From SAR86 cluster bacterium AG-313-N18 (GTDB lineage Bacteria > Pseudomonadota > Gammaproteobacteria > Magnimaribacterales > D2472): a stretch of 35,297 bases of DNA. The notes beneath the pieces were generated by a model. That model did not search any database, had not been told where the DNA came from, and worked only from the letters and a program-made list of their open reading frames with translations. This document shows, piece by piece, positions 1 to 26,172 of the stretch. Numbering within the stretch: the stretch's first letter is position 1; each line of letters opens with the position of its first letter. A program made the position numbers and the translations under genes. The stretch lies in assembly GCA_003283765.1 (NCBI GenBank), contig QBVY01000011.1:1-35297 (forward strand), read 5' to 3'.

Positions 1-28
1 ATGGTGAAAAAGTTTTTAGTTTAGATAT

Positions 29-1126
29 ATGATCCATAAAAATATTAGTGAAGAGCAGAATAATTCTAGATTAGATCAAGCGGCAACTTTTATATTCAAA
101 GATTATTCACGAAGCCAAATCCAAAGATGGATATCGCAAGGCAATCTATTGGTAAATGGTGAAATTCTAAAAGCAAAAGACAAAGTACATACTGGGGATG
201 AAATTTCTTTAGATCCAATATTTGAAAATAGGGTCTCTTGGGATGGAGAAGATATACCTATTCAGATCTTTCATGAAGAAGAGGATTTTTTAATAGTCAA
301 CAAATCGCCAGGGTTGGTTATGCATCCAGGTGCAGGCTGTCATGATGGCACTCTGGCAAATGCTTTGGCTTTCCATTTTCCAGATTTAAAAAAATTACCT
401 CGATGTGGAATCGTTCATAGGCTAGATAAAGATACCGCTCAAAGAAGAATGAAAGCCAATAACTTCTTTTCTGCAATCGAGTCTCTGGAAGCTATTGAAG
501 CAAGATATCCCTTTGGCAGATATGCAGAGCAAGCTCAATCAGAATTAATTTATGCATATTTCATGAATGGTGAAGATGAGGCTGCGCATGAGGCTGCTGA
601 AAAATTTATTCGCCTGAATCCGAGACATCCGAATATTGATTATGCATATTTTATGAGAGGCATAGCCAGTTACACCAGAGATAAAGGAATGTTTGCAAGA
701 ATTTTTAAGTCTGACCTGTCGAACAGAGATATCTCGGGTGCAAAGCAAGCCTTTGGTGAGCTATCTGAATTTTTAACTCGATTTCCACAAAGCCAATATG
801 CTCCATATGCCTCGCAAAGATTAGTTTATTTAAGAAGTTTAATTGCAAAAAATGAATTAGTTGCTGCTGAGTATTACCTAAAAAGAAAAGCCTATGTAGC
901 TGCTCTTCGAAGAGCTAAATATGTAATTGAAAATATTCCGAACTCTTCAGAAACGATGAGAGCTTTAAAAATTATTAGAGAATGTTATAAAGCTCTTGGT
1001 TACTTCGAATTGATGGAGGACATTGAAAGTGTTATTGAAGTAAATGGTGGAACAATTCTTGAGAGTCCAGAGAGCTTCTCGTGGAATTTCTTTTCAAGAA
1101 AGGCACCTCGACCCAATCAAAACTAA
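29..1126 (+). CDS. Chimeric RluD (N-terminal) / BamD (C-terminal) open reading frame
   Basis: This 365-residue frame joins two unrelated proteins. Residues 1-136 look like the start of RluD, the 23S rRNA pseudouridine synthase: an S4 RNA-binding domain (about 12-70), then the start of the synthase domain, ending in HRLDKDT, which carries the catalytic Asp (D133). The rest of the catalytic domain is missing. From about residue 136 the protein is BamD, the outer-membrane assembly lipoprotein, with TPR-type repeats and the family motifs RYPFG, FIRLNP.HPNIDY and AEYY. The BamD part lacks its signal peptide and lipobox cysteine. Neither half should work: the synthase is cut at its active site and BamD would stay in the cytoplasm. 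In many gammaproteobacteria the two genes are divergent neighbours, so an inverted chimera from amplification or assembly is likely. A real rearrangement with intact copies elsewhere is possible. Identity of both halves is near certain. Confidence 0.85.
   Translation: MIHKNISEEQNNSRLDQAATFIFKDYSRSQIQRWISQGNLLVNGEILKAKDKVHTGDEISLDPIFENRVSWDGEDIPIQIFHEEEDFLIVNKSPGLVMHPGAGCHDGTLANALAFHFPDLKKLPRCGIVHRLDKDTAQRRMKANNFFSAIESLEAIEARYPFGRYAEQAQSELIYAYFMNGEDEAAHEAAEKFIRLNPRHPNIDYAYFMRGIASYTRDKGMFARIFKSDLSNRDISGAKQAFGELSEFLTRFPQSQYAPYASQRLVYLRSLIAKNELVAAEYYLKRKAYVAALRRAKYVIENIPNSSETMRALKIIRECYKALGYFELMEDIESVIEVNGGTILESPESFSWNFFSRKAPRPNQN
431..442. other. Junction between rluD-derived and bamD-derived sequence
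   Basis: RluD similarity ends at Asp-Thr (codons at 431-436) and BamD similarity begins at Thr-Ala-Gln (434-442). The Thr codon ACC could belong to either parent, since family members have Thr at both places. This fits a join through very short shared sequence. The joined frame is open by chance or by selection; one random join in three keeps frame. Confidence 0.7.
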
Positions 1127-1133
1127 TTTAAAG

Positions 1134-2345
1134 TTAGGTAATTATTGAATATAGTCCTGCAGTAAGAAGATTACTTGTTCGATATAGTTCCTTTGGATTG
1201 TGCTGCTGATTGCATATAAATCCATAACCTACGCCTTTTTCAGGATCGCCAAATGCAACTGCGCCTCCGACTCCAGCATGACCAAACATTTTATTGTTTA
1301 GTGTTGGAGAAATATTTCCCACTGTAGCTATGCCTTGAGCCAGCTCATAACCAAGTCCAAATTTTATTGGAGCTCCAAATAATACAGAATCAGGACCGCT
1401 AGAATGAGGGGTGATAGAATGCTGAAGTGAAGCTTCACTCATAATGGATACTCCGTCTCTTTCACAACCATTACTCAAAATGCCAAATAAAGTTGCCAAA
1501 CTTTTGGCAGTGCCATGTCCGTTAGCAGATGGGATTTCTGCCAGCCGCCAATCATGAGAATTGATATAATTATCATCATCCCCTTCTCTTTCTTGAAAGG
1601 CCTCTTTGAAATCTCCACTTAATAAAGCTGCTTTAAAATTTTTAAGTATTTGGGGTAAGAAAAAGTTAGGGACATACTTAAGAAACTCTCCTGGAAGTTT
1701 TATATTTTCCATAGGTAGCATCAACATATCAGCACATCTTTCAAATTCACTCTCAGCAAGTCCGATATGAAAATCAATATTCAAAGGATCTGCTATCTCC
1801 TCCTTAAAGTAAGAGCCTGCAGTGCGGCCATCAACCCTCCTTATTAATTCACCAACCAGCCAACCAAATGTCAATGCATGATATCCCTGCGATGTACCTG
1901 GTTTTCTGTAGGGAGGTTGGATTTGGAGTGCATGCGTAAACTTATCCCAATCTTGAAAGGAGCCTGGCGGAATCCCATCTTTAAATCCAAACATTGAAGC
2001 TCTATGACAAAGTAAATCACTTACCTTGGTATTCTCTTTACCATTACAACTATATTCAGGCCAATAATGACCAACCCTTTTATTTGGATCCAGTTTACCT
2101 TGATCAATTAACCGAGATATACATGTTGCAGTTACTCCTTTGGTGACCGAGAAAACATTAACCAGAGTTTCTTCCTCCCATGCTTTTGTTTTCTTTGCAT
2201 CTTGATATCCGCCCCATAGATTAACAATCATTTCACCTTGGTACTCAATCGCTAAGGATGCTCCTGTCTCAAAACCGCTAGTTATGGCATCTGAAAAAAT
2301 GTCATAAACTTTTTGAAATTTTGGATCGCAGTAACCTTTTATCAT
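1134..2345 (-). CDS. Serine hydrolase, beta-lactamase/family VIII esterase fold
   Basis: A 403-residue protein of the beta-lactamase-related serine hydrolase family (PF00144: class C beta-lactamases, family VIII esterases, DD-peptidases). The nucleophile motif S-V-T-K is at S66-K69, the catalytic Tyr is probably Y155 (in Y-H-A), and H-A-G at 356-358 takes the place of the third lactamase motif. I see no clear signal peptide, so a cytoplasmic esterase is more likely than a periplasmic lactamase. It begins inside the stop of the upstream symporter gene (ATGA overlap, 2342-2345), so the two are translationally coupled, and its substrate may relate to what the symporter imports. The fold is secure; the substrate is unknown. 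It ends 7 bp from the end of the chimeric frame. Confidence 0.9.
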   Translation of the reverse strand: MIKGYCDPKFQKVYDIFSDAITSGFETGASLAIEYQGEMIVNLWGGYQDAKKTKAWEEETLVNVFSVTKGVTATCISRLIDQGKLDPNKRVGHYWPEYSCNGKENTKVSDLLCHRASMFGFKDGIPPGSFQDWDKFTHALQIQPPYRKPGTSQGYHALTFGWLVGELIRRVDGRTAGSYFKEEIADPLNIDFHIGLAESEFERCADMLMLPMENIKLPGEFLKYVPNFFLPQILKNFKAALLSGDFKEAFQEREGDDDNYINSHDWRLAEIPSANGHGTAKSLATLFGILSNGCERDGVSIMSEASLQHSITPHSSGPDSVLFGAPIKFGLGYELAQGIATVGNISPTLNNKMFGHAGVGGAVAFGDPEKGVGYGFICNQQHNPKELYRTSNLLTAGLYSIIT

Positions 2346-3859
2346 ATCTCTCTATAGCTTTTTATATCCCCACTGTTCAATCTTTTTTGATAATTTTCAA
2401 GCTCAGTTTTTATTACAGGAGCCAAAATATAAAGCCCCAATATATTCGGAAGAGCTACAACAAAAATAACAGCATCAGAAAAATCTAAAACCGCCGTTAA
2501 ATTAATCATGCAACCTAGGGCTATAAAAATACAAAAAAATATTTTGAAGATATTTTCTGTCCATACAGATTCTCCAACAATATATGTCCAGCCTTTCAAG
2601 CCATAATATGACCAAGACAGGATTGTTGAAAATGCAAATAATATTGCAATAAATGATAGGGGAATCACCGACCAACTAAATGTGCTGCTGAAAGCTTGAG
2701 AGGTCAAAGCAATACCTTGAATTCCTTGATTTGCCATTGCAGGCTCGTAGACTGTGGTTAAAATTACCAAGGCTGTAAGAGTACAAATAATAACTGTATC
2801 TATAAATGGTTCCATCAAACCAACGTAACCCTCAGTCACAGGTTCTTGAGTTTTGACTGCAGCATGAGCTATAGCAGCTGATCCAATTCCAGCCTCATTA
2901 GAAAATGCTGCCCTTTGAAAACCTAAAATCATAATACCCAACATTCCCCCACTCATTGCACTCGGATTAAATGCTTCAGTTAAGATGGCTGAGATTGCCC
3001 ATGGAACCCTTTCTGCATTCATAATAATTACAAGCAATGCACCAACAACGTAAGTGAGAGTCATAAATGGAACTAGCTTTGAAGTGACCCTAGCAATACC
3101 CTTAATACCGCCAATTATAACCAATCCAACTATGCCAGCTAAGATCGAGCCAAAAAGCCATCCTTTATCAAGAAAATAACTAGCTTCTCCTCCTGTAATA
3201 AAGATGAATTGCTGAAAGGCTTGATTGGACTGAAACATATTTCCTATTCCTAAACATCCAACAACAATAGCAATTGCATAAAATAGTCCCATTGGCTTTG
3301 CAAGCCAAGATAAATTTTTCTGATGCAACCCAGCCTCTAAATAATACATTGGCCCCCCAGAAATACTTCCATCAGTATTAACTTTTCTATACATCACTCC
3401 AGCCACGCATTCTGCAAATTTTGTAGACATGCCTAACAAGCCAGCAACAATTAACCAAAATGTAGCGCCGGGACCACCAATAGAAATAACAATGGCAACT
3501 CCAGCAATATTTCCAATTCCTACAGTTCCAGAAACAGCAGTTGATAATGCTTGAAAGTGAGTTAACTCACCTTCATTGTCTGGCCTGGAATAATCTCCTC
3601 TTAGTAATTTAAAAGCATGCTTAAATCCGCGAAGATTTAAAAAATTAAAGTAGCCAGTAAAAAAAATAGCTGCTCCGATTAACCATAAAACTATTAGTGG
3701 CATTGAGGCTCCGAAAATTTCAACCTCATAAAAAATAAAGGAGGACAAGAGGTTGGTAATAGGTTGGACGGCTGCATTAATTGAAGCATCAAAACCCGAA
3801 GCTGATAAAGGTGATGAGATAATTGCAATAATGCAAGAAATAATTCTATTGCTTTTCAT
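2342..3859 (-). CDS. Alanine/glycine:cation symporter (AGCS family)
   Basis: A 505-residue inner-membrane carrier of the AGCS family, which imports alanine, glycine or related small amino acids with Na+ or H+. Family signatures are clear: GTVGIGNIAG (111-120), GGPGATFW (128-135), A-E-C with G-V-M-Y-R near 149-158, and GGPMYYLE (168-175). About 10-11 hydrophobic segments are visible, after an N-terminal stretch that resembles a signal peptide (about 1-22), as in some long AGCS members. Length is normal to slightly long. It is the first gene of a two-gene unit with the serine hydrolase and is divergent from the amidotransferase gene across 36 bp. The exact amino acid carried cannot be read from the sequence. 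Confidence 0.93.
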   Translation of the reverse strand: MKSNRIISCIIAIISSPLSASGFDASINAAVQPITNLLSSFIFYEVEIFGASMPLIVLWLIGAAIFFTGYFNFLNLRGFKHAFKLLRGDYSRPDNEGELTHFQALSTAVSGTVGIGNIAGVAIVISIGGPGATFWLIVAGLLGMSTKFAECVAGVMYRKVNTDGSISGGPMYYLEAGLHQKNLSWLAKPMGLFYAIAIVVGCLGIGNMFQSNQAFQQFIFITGGEASYFLDKGWLFGSILAGIVGLVIIGGIKGIARVTSKLVPFMTLTYVVGALLVIIMNAERVPWAISAILTEAFNPSAMSGGMLGIMILGFQRAAFSNEAGIGSAAIAHAAVKTQEPVTEGYVGLMEPFIDTVIICTLTALVILTTVYEPAMANQGIQGIALTSQAFSSTFSWSVIPLSFIAILFAFSTILSWSYYGLKGWTYIVGESVWTENIFKIFFCIFIALGCMINLTAVLDFSDAVIFVVALPNILGLYILAPVIKTELENYQKRLNSGDIKSYREI

Positions 3860-3895
3860 GAATTGAATATACTACATTAAGAAAAAATAATATTT

Positions 3896-4597
3896 ATGAA
3901 AATTGGAATCCTGAACGCAGATACTGTCCAAATAAAGGGCGCCTCAGGCTTTGGTCAATATCCTGAAATGTTTTCTAAAATATTCTGGTCTGTAGATACT
4001 AATATTCAATTTAAAACATATGAAGTGCAATTCGGTGACTATCCCAGAGTCTTAAATGAATGCAATGCCTATTTGATTACTGGTAGTAAGGCAAGTGCTT
4101 ATGATGATAACCAATGGATCCATGATCTAAAAAAATTTATTCAAAGATTACATCAAAATAAAAAAAAGTTAGTGGGCGTATGTTTCGGTCATCAAATAAT
4201 TGCTGAGGCACTGGGCGGATCAGTTCGAAAATCTCCAACAGGCTGGCATGCTGGAGTTGATTCAATTTCGTTAAATAATAATGGTTATGAATATGGAGAC
4301 AAGGGAAAGAAATATAATTTAGTTTTTAGTCACCAAGATGAAGTGGAGAAACTGCCACAAAATGCAACTTTAATCGCAGGATCTCCAATATGTCCAAATG
4401 GGATGTTTTTTATTGAAAATAATATTCTTTGCATTCAGGGACATATTGAATTAGATAAAAAATTTGCAAGGATGATATATGACTTCAGAAAAGATCAAAT
4501 TGGGAATTCTAAGTATCTCCATGCTTGTGAAACGCTAGCCATTAAAACTAATGAGCAAGAGATTACAAGTAGCATTTTAGAATTTCTAAAAAAATAA
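3896..4597 (+). CDS. Class I glutamine amidotransferase-like protein
   Basis: A 233-residue single-domain protein of the GMP-synthase-like class I glutamine amidotransferase group. The catalytic triad is readable: Cys96 in the nucleophile elbow GVCFGHQ, and His183 and Glu185 in QGHIE. Stand-alone members hydrolyse glutamine or gamma-glutamyl compounds, often in polyamine or amino-acid catabolism, but nothing nearby fixes the substrate. It lies alone, divergent from the AGCS symporter and ending 1 bp from the convergent dioxygenase gene. A TATACT hexamer at 3868-3873 could serve as its -10 box. No Shine-Dalgarno sequence is evident before the ATG. Guanine synthesis is unlikely, since the synthetase domains of GuaA are absent. 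Confidence 0.85.
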   Translation: MKIGILNADTVQIKGASGFGQYPEMFSKIFWSVDTNIQFKTYEVQFGDYPRVLNECNAYLITGSKASAYDDNQWIHDLKKFIQRLHQNKKKLVGVCFGHQIIAEALGGSVRKSPTGWHAGVDSISLNNNGYEYGDKGKKYNLVFSHQDEVEKLPQNATLIAGSPICPNGMFFIENNILCIQGHIELDKKFARMIYDFRKDQIGNSKYLHACETLAIKTNEQEITSSILEFLKK

Positions 4598-5978: not shown

Positions 5979-5998
5979 ATCATCATTTACAATTTTAA

Positions 5999-6268
5999 TT
6001 AAAGTTTTTTTGATTCATCATATGAATATACCTTAGCTTTATTTTGCTTGGGATTTTTAATTAAATGAACCTCGTAATCATCAACATTATTGATCTCTTT
6101 AATTCCATCAATATGCATTTTTTTATCTCTAAATTTATCCATGCTCATGATTTTTTTCTTTGCTGATTTGGGATTACCAGCTGCAACAAAGATATTAATG
6201 TGAGATTCATAAATACCTTCTCCAACTTCCTCATCATAAAAACCCACATGAACCATAAATAATTTCAT
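5999..6268 (-). CDS. DUF1543-like small protein
   Basis: An 89-residue protein beginning with K-L-F-M-V-H-V-G, followed by G-x-Y-E-S-H and a V-A-A-G-N-P-K-S-A-K-K-K stretch. This resembles the DUF1543 family, small soluble proteins of unknown function. It has no signal peptide or membrane segment and is rich in lysine. It lies 30 bp below the RND pump gene and 20 bp above the cupin gene, on the same strand. No function can be assigned. Confidence 0.65.
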   Translation of the reverse strand: MKLFMVHVGFYDEEVGEGIYESHINIFVAAGNPKSAKKKIMSMDKFRDKKMHIDGIKEINNVDDYEVHLIKNPKQNKAKVYSYDESKKL

Positions 6269-6298
6269 ACTTATCTCTTTTAATTTGTATCTATTAAT

Positions 6299-22427: not shown

Positions 22428-23770
22428 TGTCAAAAAAAATTCTAATTGCCAATCGAGGGGAGATTGCTCTGCGAGCTCTCAGGGCATGCAAAGAACTAGA
22501 TCTTAAAACAGTAGCAATATACTCTTCTGGAGACAAAGAACTCAAACACTTGAGATTGGCTGATGAAACTGTGTGCGTTGGGCCAGCGAGCCCTTTGGAA
22601 AGTTATTTAAATATTCCCTCGATACTTTCGGCTGCCGAGCTTACAAGATCTGATGCGATATATCCTGGCTATGGTTTTCTTGCAGAAGACGCAGATTTTG
22701 CTGAAAGATGTGAAGCTAGCGGATTTGTATTCATTGGCCCCTCTTCAGATGTTATTCGCAAAATGGGAGATAAAATTACCGCAAAAGGTTTGGCTGAAGA
22801 CTCGAATATTCCAATTGTACCGGGCTATAAAGGAGATATGCCTGAAACTGATGAGGCTATAAAAAAAATAGCTGCAGAAGTTAGTTACCCTCTTATGATT
22901 AAAGCATCTGCAGGAGGTGGCGGAAGAGGAATGAGAGTTGTCCAAGAAGAATCAGAATTGATCTCATCCCTACAGCTCACCAAACAAGAGGCAAAAAATG
23001 CTTTTGGAAATGACACCATATATTTTGAAAAATTTATTCAAAATCCTCGTCACATAGAGGTTCAAATTGTTGCAGATGGAAAGGGAAGTGCTATTCATCT
23101 TGGAACAAGAGATTGCAGCATGCAAAGAAGGCATCAAAAAATTATAGAAGAGGCTCCAGCTCTTGATATCTGTCAAGAATCTTTAGAAACAACACTACAA
23201 GCTTGCTTAACACTATGTAGAAATATTCAGTATTCTGGAGTAGGTACACTTGAGTTTCTGTATGAAAATGGTGCATTTTATTTCATTGAGATGAACACTA
23301 GAATCCAAGTTGAGCACCCTGTTTCTGAAATGATTACGGGCTTTGATATTGTTAAAGCGCAATTAAAAATTGCTTTAGGGATGGAGCTTACGCTTGATCA
23401 ACAAGAAATTATTTTTCGTGGTCATGCAATGGAGTGCAGGATAAATGCAGAAGACCCAGAGACTTTTGTTCCCTCGCCTGGGGTTATCAATAAAATGCAC
23501 CCTCCTGGTGGATTTGGGGTGAGGTTTGATTCGCATATCTACTCAGGATATGTTGTGCCACCACACTACGACTCCCTGCTCGCAAAAATTATTACAACCG
23601 CTAATACAAGAGAGTCTTGCATTAAAAGAATGCTAAGTGCATTAGATGAGTTTTTTGTAGAAGGTATCAGCACAAATCATTCTTTGCATCAAAAACTTTT
23701 GGAAGATAAAACATTTTGCAAGAATGAACATAATATCAACTATCTTGAAGGATCTTTTTTAGAAAAATGA
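22427..23770 (+). CDS. accC: Biotin carboxylase subunit of acetyl-CoA carboxylase
   Basis: A 447-residue ATP-grasp enzyme that carboxylates the biotin on AccB with bicarbonate and ATP. The start I-L-I-A-N-R-G-E-I-A-L-R-A-L-R, the ATP loop A-G-G-G-G-R-G-M (about 164-171), R-D-C-S-M-Q-R-R-H-Q-K, and E-M-N-T-R-I-Q-V-E-H-P-V-S-E are all present. Length matches the family (about 447-450). Its ATG shares a base with the accB stop and its end overlaps leuS by four bases (ATGA), so it is embedded in a coupled operon. Confidence 0.98.
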   Translation: MSKKILIANRGEIALRALRACKELDLKTVAIYSSGDKELKHLRLADETVCVGPASPLESYLNIPSILSAAELTRSDAIYPGYGFLAEDADFAERCEASGFVFIGPSSDVIRKMGDKITAKGLAEDSNIPIVPGYKGDMPETDEAIKKIAAEVSYPLMIKASAGGGGRGMRVVQEESELISSLQLTKQEAKNAFGNDTIYFEKFIQNPRHIEVQIVADGKGSAIHLGTRDCSMQRRHQKIIEEAPALDICQESLETTLQACLTLCRNIQYSGVGTLEFLYENGAFYFIEMNTRIQVEHPVSEMITGFDIVKAQLKIALGMELTLDQQEIIFRGHAMECRINAEDPETFVPSPGVINKMHPPGGFGVRFDSHIYSGYVVPPHYDSLLAKIITTANTRESCIKRMLSALDEFFVEGISTNHSLHQKLLEDKTFCKNEHNINYLEGSFLEK

Positions 23771-26172
23771 GTGTCAAAGAATATAATCCTGCTGAAATAG
23801 AAAACCTCATTCAGGAATCATGGAAGCAAAATAATTCATACAAAGCTTCACCCTCTGAAACAAAAGAAAAATTTTATTGCCTTTCAATGTTCCCTTACCC
23901 TTCAGGAAAATTGCATATGGGCCATGTTCGCAATTATACGATTGGAGACGTTATTTCTAGATTTAAGAGAATGCAAGGCTTTAATGTGTTTCAGCCCATG
24001 GGATGGGATGCGTTCGGCCTTCCAGCAGAGAATGCAGCTATAAAAAATAAAGTTGACCCTCAAAGTTGGACTGAACAAAATATTGCAAATATGAAGTCAC
24101 AATTAGAAAGATTAGGCTTTAGCTATGATTGGTCGAAAGAACTAAAAACTTGCGATCCTGGCTATTTTCGATGGGAGCAAGAGATTTTTACCTTGCTTCA
24201 TAAACAAGGTCTTGTATATAGAAAAAAATCCCTAGTTAATTGGGATCCTGTTGATGAAACAGTTTTAGCAAATGAACAAGTTATTGATGGTAAAGGATGG
24301 AGATCTGGAGCAACTGTTGAGCTCAAAGAAATTGACCAATGGTTTTTAAAGATTACTGATTATGCTGATGAATTGCTTTCATCAATTGAAAATTTAGATT
24401 GGCCAGAAAATGTAAAATCTATGCAAAAAAACTGGATTGGTAAGTCATTTGGTTCAGAAATAAAATTTTCTTTGCATGGTGCACAAGAGTTAACTGCCTT
24501 TACCACAAGAATAGATACTATTTATGGCGTAACCTACATAGCTATTTCTCCGAATCATCCTCTAGCCCAAGGTCTTGCAAGTGATAATCCAGAAATCAAT
24601 GAATTCATAAAAAAATGTAACGCAACAAAAATGGCAGAAGCTGACATGGCTAAGGCAGATAAGTTGGGACTAAAAACAAATTTGAAGGTTAAGCACCCTT
24701 TCTTAGACACCGACCTTGATGTATGGATTGCAAACTACGTTCTAATGGACTACGGAACTGGAGTAGTGATGGGTGTTCCTGCTCATGATGAAAGAGATTA
24801 TGAATTTGCTCAAAAATATAATATTGAAATTAAAAAAGTTATTGAATGCGACGAATTGCCATCCCCAAAGAAAGGAGTTCTTATTAATTCTGATAATTTT
24901 ACCGGGCAGGAATCAGACGAGGCAATTAAGAGTATTAATGACTACTTAGAAAAAAATACCATTGGTAAAAGTATAGAAAATTTTAGACTAAGGGACTGGG
25001 GCGTAAGTAGGCAAAGATTTTGGGGTTGCCCAATCCCAGTTATCTACCAAGATGGCGAGCCTATTTTTTTAGAGAACGAAGATCTTCCAGTCAAGCTACC
25101 TAAAATTGCAGATGGAGAATCTCCTAAACCGTTAAGTCAAAATAAAGCTTTCTTTGATTTGGGTTCAGGAAAGACTCGCGAAGTAGATACTTTTGATACA
25201 TTTGTAGATTCTTCATGGTATTACGCAAGATTTACAGCGGCTGATAATAATGACAAAGCATTGGATGAGAGTTCAAAGCATTGGCTTCCTGTTGATCTAT
25301 ATGTTGGAGGGATTGAGCACGCAATATTGCATCTTCTTTACTCAAGATTCTTCCATAAGGCTATGAGAGATATGGGTCTGGTTGATGGCGATGAGCCTTT
25401 TAAGAAACTTCTTACACAGGGCATGGTTCTAAAAGATGGTTACAAAATGTCGAAGTCTAAAGGTAATACTGTAGACCCACAACAGTTTATTGACCAATAT
25501 GGAGCTGACACAATTAGACTTTATATGATGTTTACTTCTCCGCCTGAGCAATCCCTGGAATGGTCAGATACAGCAATTGAGGGCTCATACAGATTCCTCA
25601 AGCGTGTATGGAATCTTTGTTCAGAAAGAAAAAGATTTACCGAAAAGCAACCAGACGAATTTACAAAACATGAGCTTGAACTGCGTCAAAAAAGTCATAA
25701 AACTCTAAAAAAAGTTACTCATGACTATGCTGAACGCAATTCATTTAATACAGCAATAGCATCAATAATGGAGTTATTAAATGCGGTTCCAGAATCATTT
25801 AAATCTAATGATGCAACCATAGCTCAAAGATTCTGTTTAGATGAGGTGATTCAATTTACATTGAAGATGTTATCGCCAATTACCCCCCATATTAGTCTAT
25901 ATTTATGGAAAGAGTACTCAGAATCTGATGATAATGATTTTGAAAATTCTTGGCCAATCTACAATGAAGAGTTTCTTCAATTTAAAGATTTTCAACTTAT
26001 TATTCAGGTGAATGGAAAAGTACGAGGCAAAGAAAATGTTTCTGTTGATAAAGAGCAAGCTGATTTAGAGGTGCTAGCAAAAGAAAATGAAAATGTTAAA
26101 AAAATTCTAGCTAACCAGTCCATAAAAAAGGTAATCTATATAAAAGAAAAACTAATTAATTTCGTGATTTAA
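23767..26172 (+). CDS. leuS: Leucyl-tRNA synthetase
   Basis: An 801-residue class I aminoacyl-tRNA synthetase. The HIGH motif appears as H-M-G-H (50-53) and the KMSKS loop is at 560-564. An editing (CP1) domain is present, with T-T-R-I-D-T-I-Y-G-V-T-Y near 242-253. The enzyme is about 60 residues shorter than E. coli LeuRS. The ZN-1 region from about 158 reads N-W-D-P-V-D-E-T-V-L-A-N and G-K-G-W-R-S-G: the zinc-binding cysteines of the E. coli form are absent. It overlaps accC by 4 bp and is directly followed by an unknown gene in place of lptE. Confidence 0.98.
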   Translation: MSVKEYNPAEIENLIQESWKQNNSYKASPSETKEKFYCLSMFPYPSGKLHMGHVRNYTIGDVISRFKRMQGFNVFQPMGWDAFGLPAENAAIKNKVDPQSWTEQNIANMKSQLERLGFSYDWSKELKTCDPGYFRWEQEIFTLLHKQGLVYRKKSLVNWDPVDETVLANEQVIDGKGWRSGATVELKEIDQWFLKITDYADELLSSIENLDWPENVKSMQKNWIGKSFGSEIKFSLHGAQELTAFTTRIDTIYGVTYIAISPNHPLAQGLASDNPEINEFIKKCNATKMAEADMAKADKLGLKTNLKVKHPFLDTDLDVWIANYVLMDYGTGVVMGVPAHDERDYEFAQKYNIEIKKVIECDELPSPKKGVLINSDNFTGQESDEAIKSINDYLEKNTIGKSIENFRLRDWGVSRQRFWGCPIPVIYQDGEPIFLENEDLPVKLPKIADGESPKPLSQNKAFFDLGSGKTREVDTFDTFVDSSWYYARFTAADNNDKALDESSKHWLPVDLYVGGIEHAILHLLYSRFFHKAMRDMGLVDGDEPFKKLLTQGMVLKDGYKMSKSKGNTVDPQQFIDQYGADTIRLYMMFTSPPEQSLEWSDTAIEGSYRFLKRVWNLCSERKRFTEKQPDEFTKHELELRQKSHKTLKKVTHDYAERNSFNTAIASIMELLNAVPESFKSNDATIAQRFCLDEVIQFTLKMLSPITPHISLYLWKEYSESDDNDFENSWPIYNEEFLQFKDFQLIIQVNGKVRGKENVSVDKEQADLEVLAKENENVKKILANQSIKKVIYIKEKLINFVI

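Follow-up and report, generated by a model that had tools for sequence, protein, structure and literature searches.

The window, here the whole 35,297-nucleotide stretch that was analyzed, begins with an open reading frame (ORF) that joins part of RluD to part of BamD. The locus raises the question of whether this ORF encodes a fusion protein of the organism or arose during the preparation of its DNA. We conclude that it is almost certainly an inverted chimera of the kind formed in multiple displacement amplification (MDA) with phi29 polymerase, an artefact and no feature of the organism. This reading, put forward by the original prediction, is supported by the geometry of the locus in relatives, the overlap at the join, the lone occurrence of the fusion and a further inverted join that opens another contig, C10, of the source assembly.

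An ORF check of the window confirmed a frame of 365 codons (365 amino acids) at 29-1126 on the plus strand. Its residues 1-136 derive from RluD, and BamD, lacking approximately its first 40 residues, makes up 135-365. The parts of this region are as follows.

1-28, plus strand: start of the contig, intergenic sequence 5' of rluD that is the rluD-bamD spacer in relatives; aligns to the minus strand of locus L036 and of other relatives, just outside the rluD ATG.
29-436, plus strand: rluD from its start through codon 136, covering the S4 domain and the catalytic domain as far as HRLDKDT, with the remainder of the gene missing; placed by Pfam and NCBIfam matches and by the minus strand of relatives.
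431-436, plus strand: overlap at the junction, GATAC (5 nt) or GATACC (6 nt), common to rluD and bamD; placed by setting the two parents side by side in ten relatives.
437-1126, plus strand: bamD from about codon 41 onward, lacking the native start and the approximately 40 codons that include the signal peptide and lipobox; placed by TIGR03302 from profile position 39 and by the plus strand of relatives from 431 or 437.

Both halves are truncated. A Pfam profile search places the S4 domain (PF01479) at ORF residues 14-59, followed by a match to PseudoU_synth_2 (PF00849) at residues 86-136 that covers only positions 1-49 of the 152 in the model and falls below its cut-off, so the ORF lacks a complete RluD catalytic domain. 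The RluD model PRK11180 matches residues 3-156 (9.7e-43), with a score below the cut-off as expected for an ORF that carries an RluD fragment only. The BamD model TIGR03302 from NCBIfam matches residues 136-339 (7e-59), beginning at profile position 39, and both the signal peptide and the lipobox cysteine of BamD are absent. The original prediction had described exactly these halves, an RluD cut at its HRLDKDT motif and a BamD with neither signal peptide nor lipobox, and the profile matches agree with it on each. In L036, the closest relative, BamD has 40 residues ahead of the switch point, including a signal peptide and a lipobox-like ..SC. A lipobox-like motif is found upstream of bamD in 74 of 77 relatives' loci, and the remaining three have a Cys in a context outside the pattern used.

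The normal arrangement of the two genes is apparent from the relatives, the closest of which carry SAR86 cluster bacteria as their title. Among the best 80 of 104 named SAR86 loci, 77 have rluD next to bamD in divergent orientation, as the original prediction had stated for E. coli and its relatives. These 77 include metagenome bins and one record titled complete chromosome (L069). The three exceptions are L056, a contig end whose sequence begins within bamD; L108, which is N-masked upstream of bamD (2903 N); and L048 (AG-893-O10), whose sequence upstream of bamD (1998-2786) departs from that of L047, L051 and L049 at approximately 2786 and holds a 5'-truncated ilvC in place of rluD. The upstream sequence of L048 is possibly another chimera or a true rearrangement. 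Separately, the bamD matches in L020 and L022 (genomes G003 and G002) each contain one in-frame TAG.

Against this arrangement, the window is inverted on one side of the join. When compared with the ten closest named loci, positions 1-439 of the window (1-435 or 1-436 in some cases) match the minus strand with 83-88% identity, and positions from 431 (or 437) onward match the plus strand with 83-89%. In L036, window 1-439 corresponds to minus-strand 2819-2381, and window 431-1600 to plus-strand 3001-4170. The ends of the join are therefore approximately 617 bp apart in this relative, in keeping with the predicted inversion over several hundred base pairs, and 181 bp are missing between the first base of the window and the bamD part. 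Two neighboring segments, less than 10 kb apart, are thus joined in inverted orientation with deletion of the sequence between them, as judged from close relatives that hold both.

The switch from rluD to bamD falls within GATACC at window 431-436, so the anticipated microhomology is indeed present at the join. These six nucleotides encode Asp-Thr in both parents (RluD ..HRLDK-DT-SG and BamD ..YY-DT-AQRR). All ten relatives have GATAAAGATAC(C or T)TC in the parental rluD. In the parental bamD, nine have TATTACGATAC.GC, and L042 deviates inside the 6-mer. Among the ten, bamD has GATAC in nine and GATACC in two, and rluD has GATACC in seven and GATACT in three. Whether the overlap spans 6 nt or 5 nt consequently depends on the sixth base of bamD in the source genome: C there would give 6 nt, any other base 5 nt. 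In simulated random joins between rluD and bamD, an overlap of at least 5 nt occurs in a fraction of 0.0075-0.0079 of trials (0.75-0.79%) and one of at least 6 nt in 0.0023-0.0030 (0.23-0.30%), which makes the observed overlap noteworthy. Because 33% of such joins (1 in 3) stay in frame, the open fused frame is by itself unremarkable.

The fusion is private to one assembly. Among the matches listed for the 107 genomes of the family, 102 of which matched with the source assembly (G000) included, only G000 has a match over both halves; since matches are ordered by score, a fusion elsewhere in the family would top the list. A wider set of 60 relatives reaching into the order gave the same result, with 59 of 60 matched and both halves in one match only in G000 among the matches listed. 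The comparison of the locus across related genomes that had been proposed as a check yields the normal divergent order in 77 of 80 named loci, and the fusion in G000 only among the matches listed. Two groups of apparent exceptions were rejected. Fifteen whole-fusion tblastn matches in the 80 named loci cross the join, but each of the 15 falls within the relative's native rluD, on the minus strand, and is no fusion. Family matches on the rluD side that extend to query residue 165-180 were checked in G015, G022, G033, G116, G070 and G073, where they lie on the strand opposite to bamD of the same contig. A tblastn search of phage records with the fusion matched 18 records, none covering 80% of the query; of the five listed, three align with the BamD half, under the annotation yfiO, and two with the RluD half, the records being unannotated. 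A search of one literature library for RluD, BamD and fusion together found no paper.

The source assembly comprises 1,198,394 bases in 45 contigs and is 73.5% complete, and the window is its contig 11 (C11). Four other contig ends, chosen arbitrarily, were compared with nine close relatives, for a total of six ends including both of C11. The end of C12, the starts of C1 and C4 and the far end of C11 are collinear with relatives. The start of C10 (L129, G000:C10:1-4000) is a second inverted join, with 1-1492 on one strand and 1493-4000 on the other. This join is seen against all seven relatives that match it (G022, G014, G001, G008, G005, G007 and G015); the remaining two, G019 and G025, have no match to the C10 start. 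In G015, contig C26 holds both strands of the C10 start, and the remainder is on C20. The C10 join leads from the end of murF into the inside of murE and cuts murE from 486 to 238 amino acids, and in G022 its ends are 2105 bp apart with 613 bp missing. A further chimera of the same form is thus present at one of the four other ends, in an assembly that is the only one of the 107 family genomes to hold the rluD-bamD fusion among the matches listed. The C10 and C11 joins share the inverted form, and the relatives are too diverged to place an overlap at C10.

The rluD-bamD join fits the published properties of MDA chimeras in its orientation, its overlap and the range of distances, though not in the peak distance. 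Excerpts of a study of a single-cell MDA reaction (Lasken and Stockwell, 2007, PMC1855051) give 406 inverted chimeras of 475, with the segments less than 10 kb apart in 337 of the 406 and more than 70% of junctions primed at 2-21 complementary nucleotides. For a larger chimera set, excerpts of Tu et al. (2015, PMC4595205) give an overlap that peaks at 6 nt, with most at 5-8, and distances between 0 and 5,000 nt, the peak being at 250-300 nt. The overlap GATAC or GATACC falls within these ranges.

Amplification could have produced the join in the following manner. In the chromosome, rluD and bamD presumably lie back to back, approximately 90 bp apart, as the order in relatives suggests. During amplification, a growing 3' end would copy outward through rluD to codon 136 and then be displaced. 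Pairing through GATAC or GATACC (5 or 6 nt), the displaced 3' end could re-anneal at about codon 41 of bamD on the complementary strand close by, and be extended through bamD. An assembler following this chimeric molecule would then produce a contig that ends in intergenic sequence.

We infer from the fit to MDA chimeras and from the C10 case that the source DNA was amplified. Among the 11 closest named loci (L036-L046), eight are named AG-..., many of these records being titled MAG; we take AG-... to be single-cell names and count them toward amplification. Marine single-cell genomes, including 16 of SAR86, are described in excerpts of PMC6122165.

Several observations count against the amplification artefact. 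Just 28 bp of contig precede the rluD ATG, and a further 181 bp would be needed to reach the repeated bamD sequence. The original prediction had placed the contig end about where an assembler would break on such a repeat; the join does lie at a contig end, but the start does not coincide exactly with the expected repeat border. Trimming of 100 bp from contig ends, as in one single-cell pipeline (excerpts of PMC5519541), leaves the exact contig start unexplained by rough reckoning. Moreover, three of the four other contig ends are collinear with relatives, and the distances of approximately 617 and 2105 bp exceed the peak of 250-300 nt, yet lie within the reported range. Palindromic contig ends lend the artefact no support, since no self-inverted repeat was found in 62 of the 90 contig ends of G000 (60 ends of 2-4 kb each and both window ends).

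Intact copies of the two genes elsewhere in the assembly, which it had been suggested to look for, did not emerge: the missing stretches were not found in the 73.5% complete G000. Searches with L036 1-2380 (the rest of rluD and the sequence beyond it) and with L036 2820-3000 (the missing 5' region of bamD) gave no match in G000, although a diverged query such as the latter could miss a short copy. G000 has a single BamD match with no second PF13525 match, and four pseudouridine-synthase matches, one of them in the window.

Collinearity with relatives holds from 431 to the opposite end of the window, with two exceptions. At 5979-6290 the alignment breaks in six of nine relatives, and a short ORF (5999-6268) lies inside this interval. 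At 24446-25496, G025 and G015 lose close similarity over approximately 1 kb with a good match on both sides. The ORF that holds this interval (23767-26172) is by appearance, we presume, a leucyl-tRNA synthetase, and it looks as if its middle part had been swapped for a diverged allele. Elsewhere in the assembly, the start of contig C3 (L122:11-640) is a near-perfect tandem array of a 48-bp unit in 7.9 copies followed by an 18-bp unit in 11.6 copies, which is a likely reason for the contig end there.

A true inversion of approximately 0.6 kb in the chromosome of this cell, with breakpoints in rluD and bamD and with either a dead gene or a fused protein that is not secreted as its outcome, is formally possible but very unlikely. 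Its right-hand junction alone would be identical to that of the chimera, and the fused frame is open. However, it would remove the signal peptide and lipobox of BamD and most of the catalytic domain of RluD, its reciprocal left junction was not found in the 73.5% complete assembly, and no other of the 107 family genomes has the fusion among the matches listed. The C10 join of the same form would also require that murE be broken; E. coli cannot live without BamD or MurE. That such an inversion gave one SAR86 cell a cytoplasmic S4-RluD/BamD fusion, its intact genes being lost or in the unassembled quarter, is highly improbable. A further alternative is a pure assembly error, with no amplification involved and a short repeat leading the assembler from one strand to the other. 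It would suit the position at a contig end and the 5- or 6-nt overlap but is scarcely credible, because that overlap is far below usual assembly k-mers and calls for a chimeric molecule, and because two joins of inverted form occur in one assembly.

With the amplification chimera as the preferred reading, the spurious RluD-BamD fusion is dropped from consideration and is not a new protein. Since no fewer than two contigs of the source assembly, C10 and C11, start with an inverted join, a fused or broken gene at any of its contig ends should be accepted only after comparison to relatives.

Compared with known systems, the N-terminal half of the ORF is a clear homologue of RluD, the 23S rRNA pseudouridine synthase, and the C-terminal half of BamD, the outer-membrane assembly lipoprotein, but each gene is incomplete in the window. 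As a join, the locus resembles the inverted chimeras of phi29 MDA as characterized in excerpts of Lasken and Stockwell (2007) and Tu et al. (2015) in its inverted orientation, a distance far below 10 kb, the deletion between the segments and the overlap of 5 or 6 nt. It differs from them in being known here from the assembled contig alone, and its distance is above the most frequent one in the excerpts of Tu et al.
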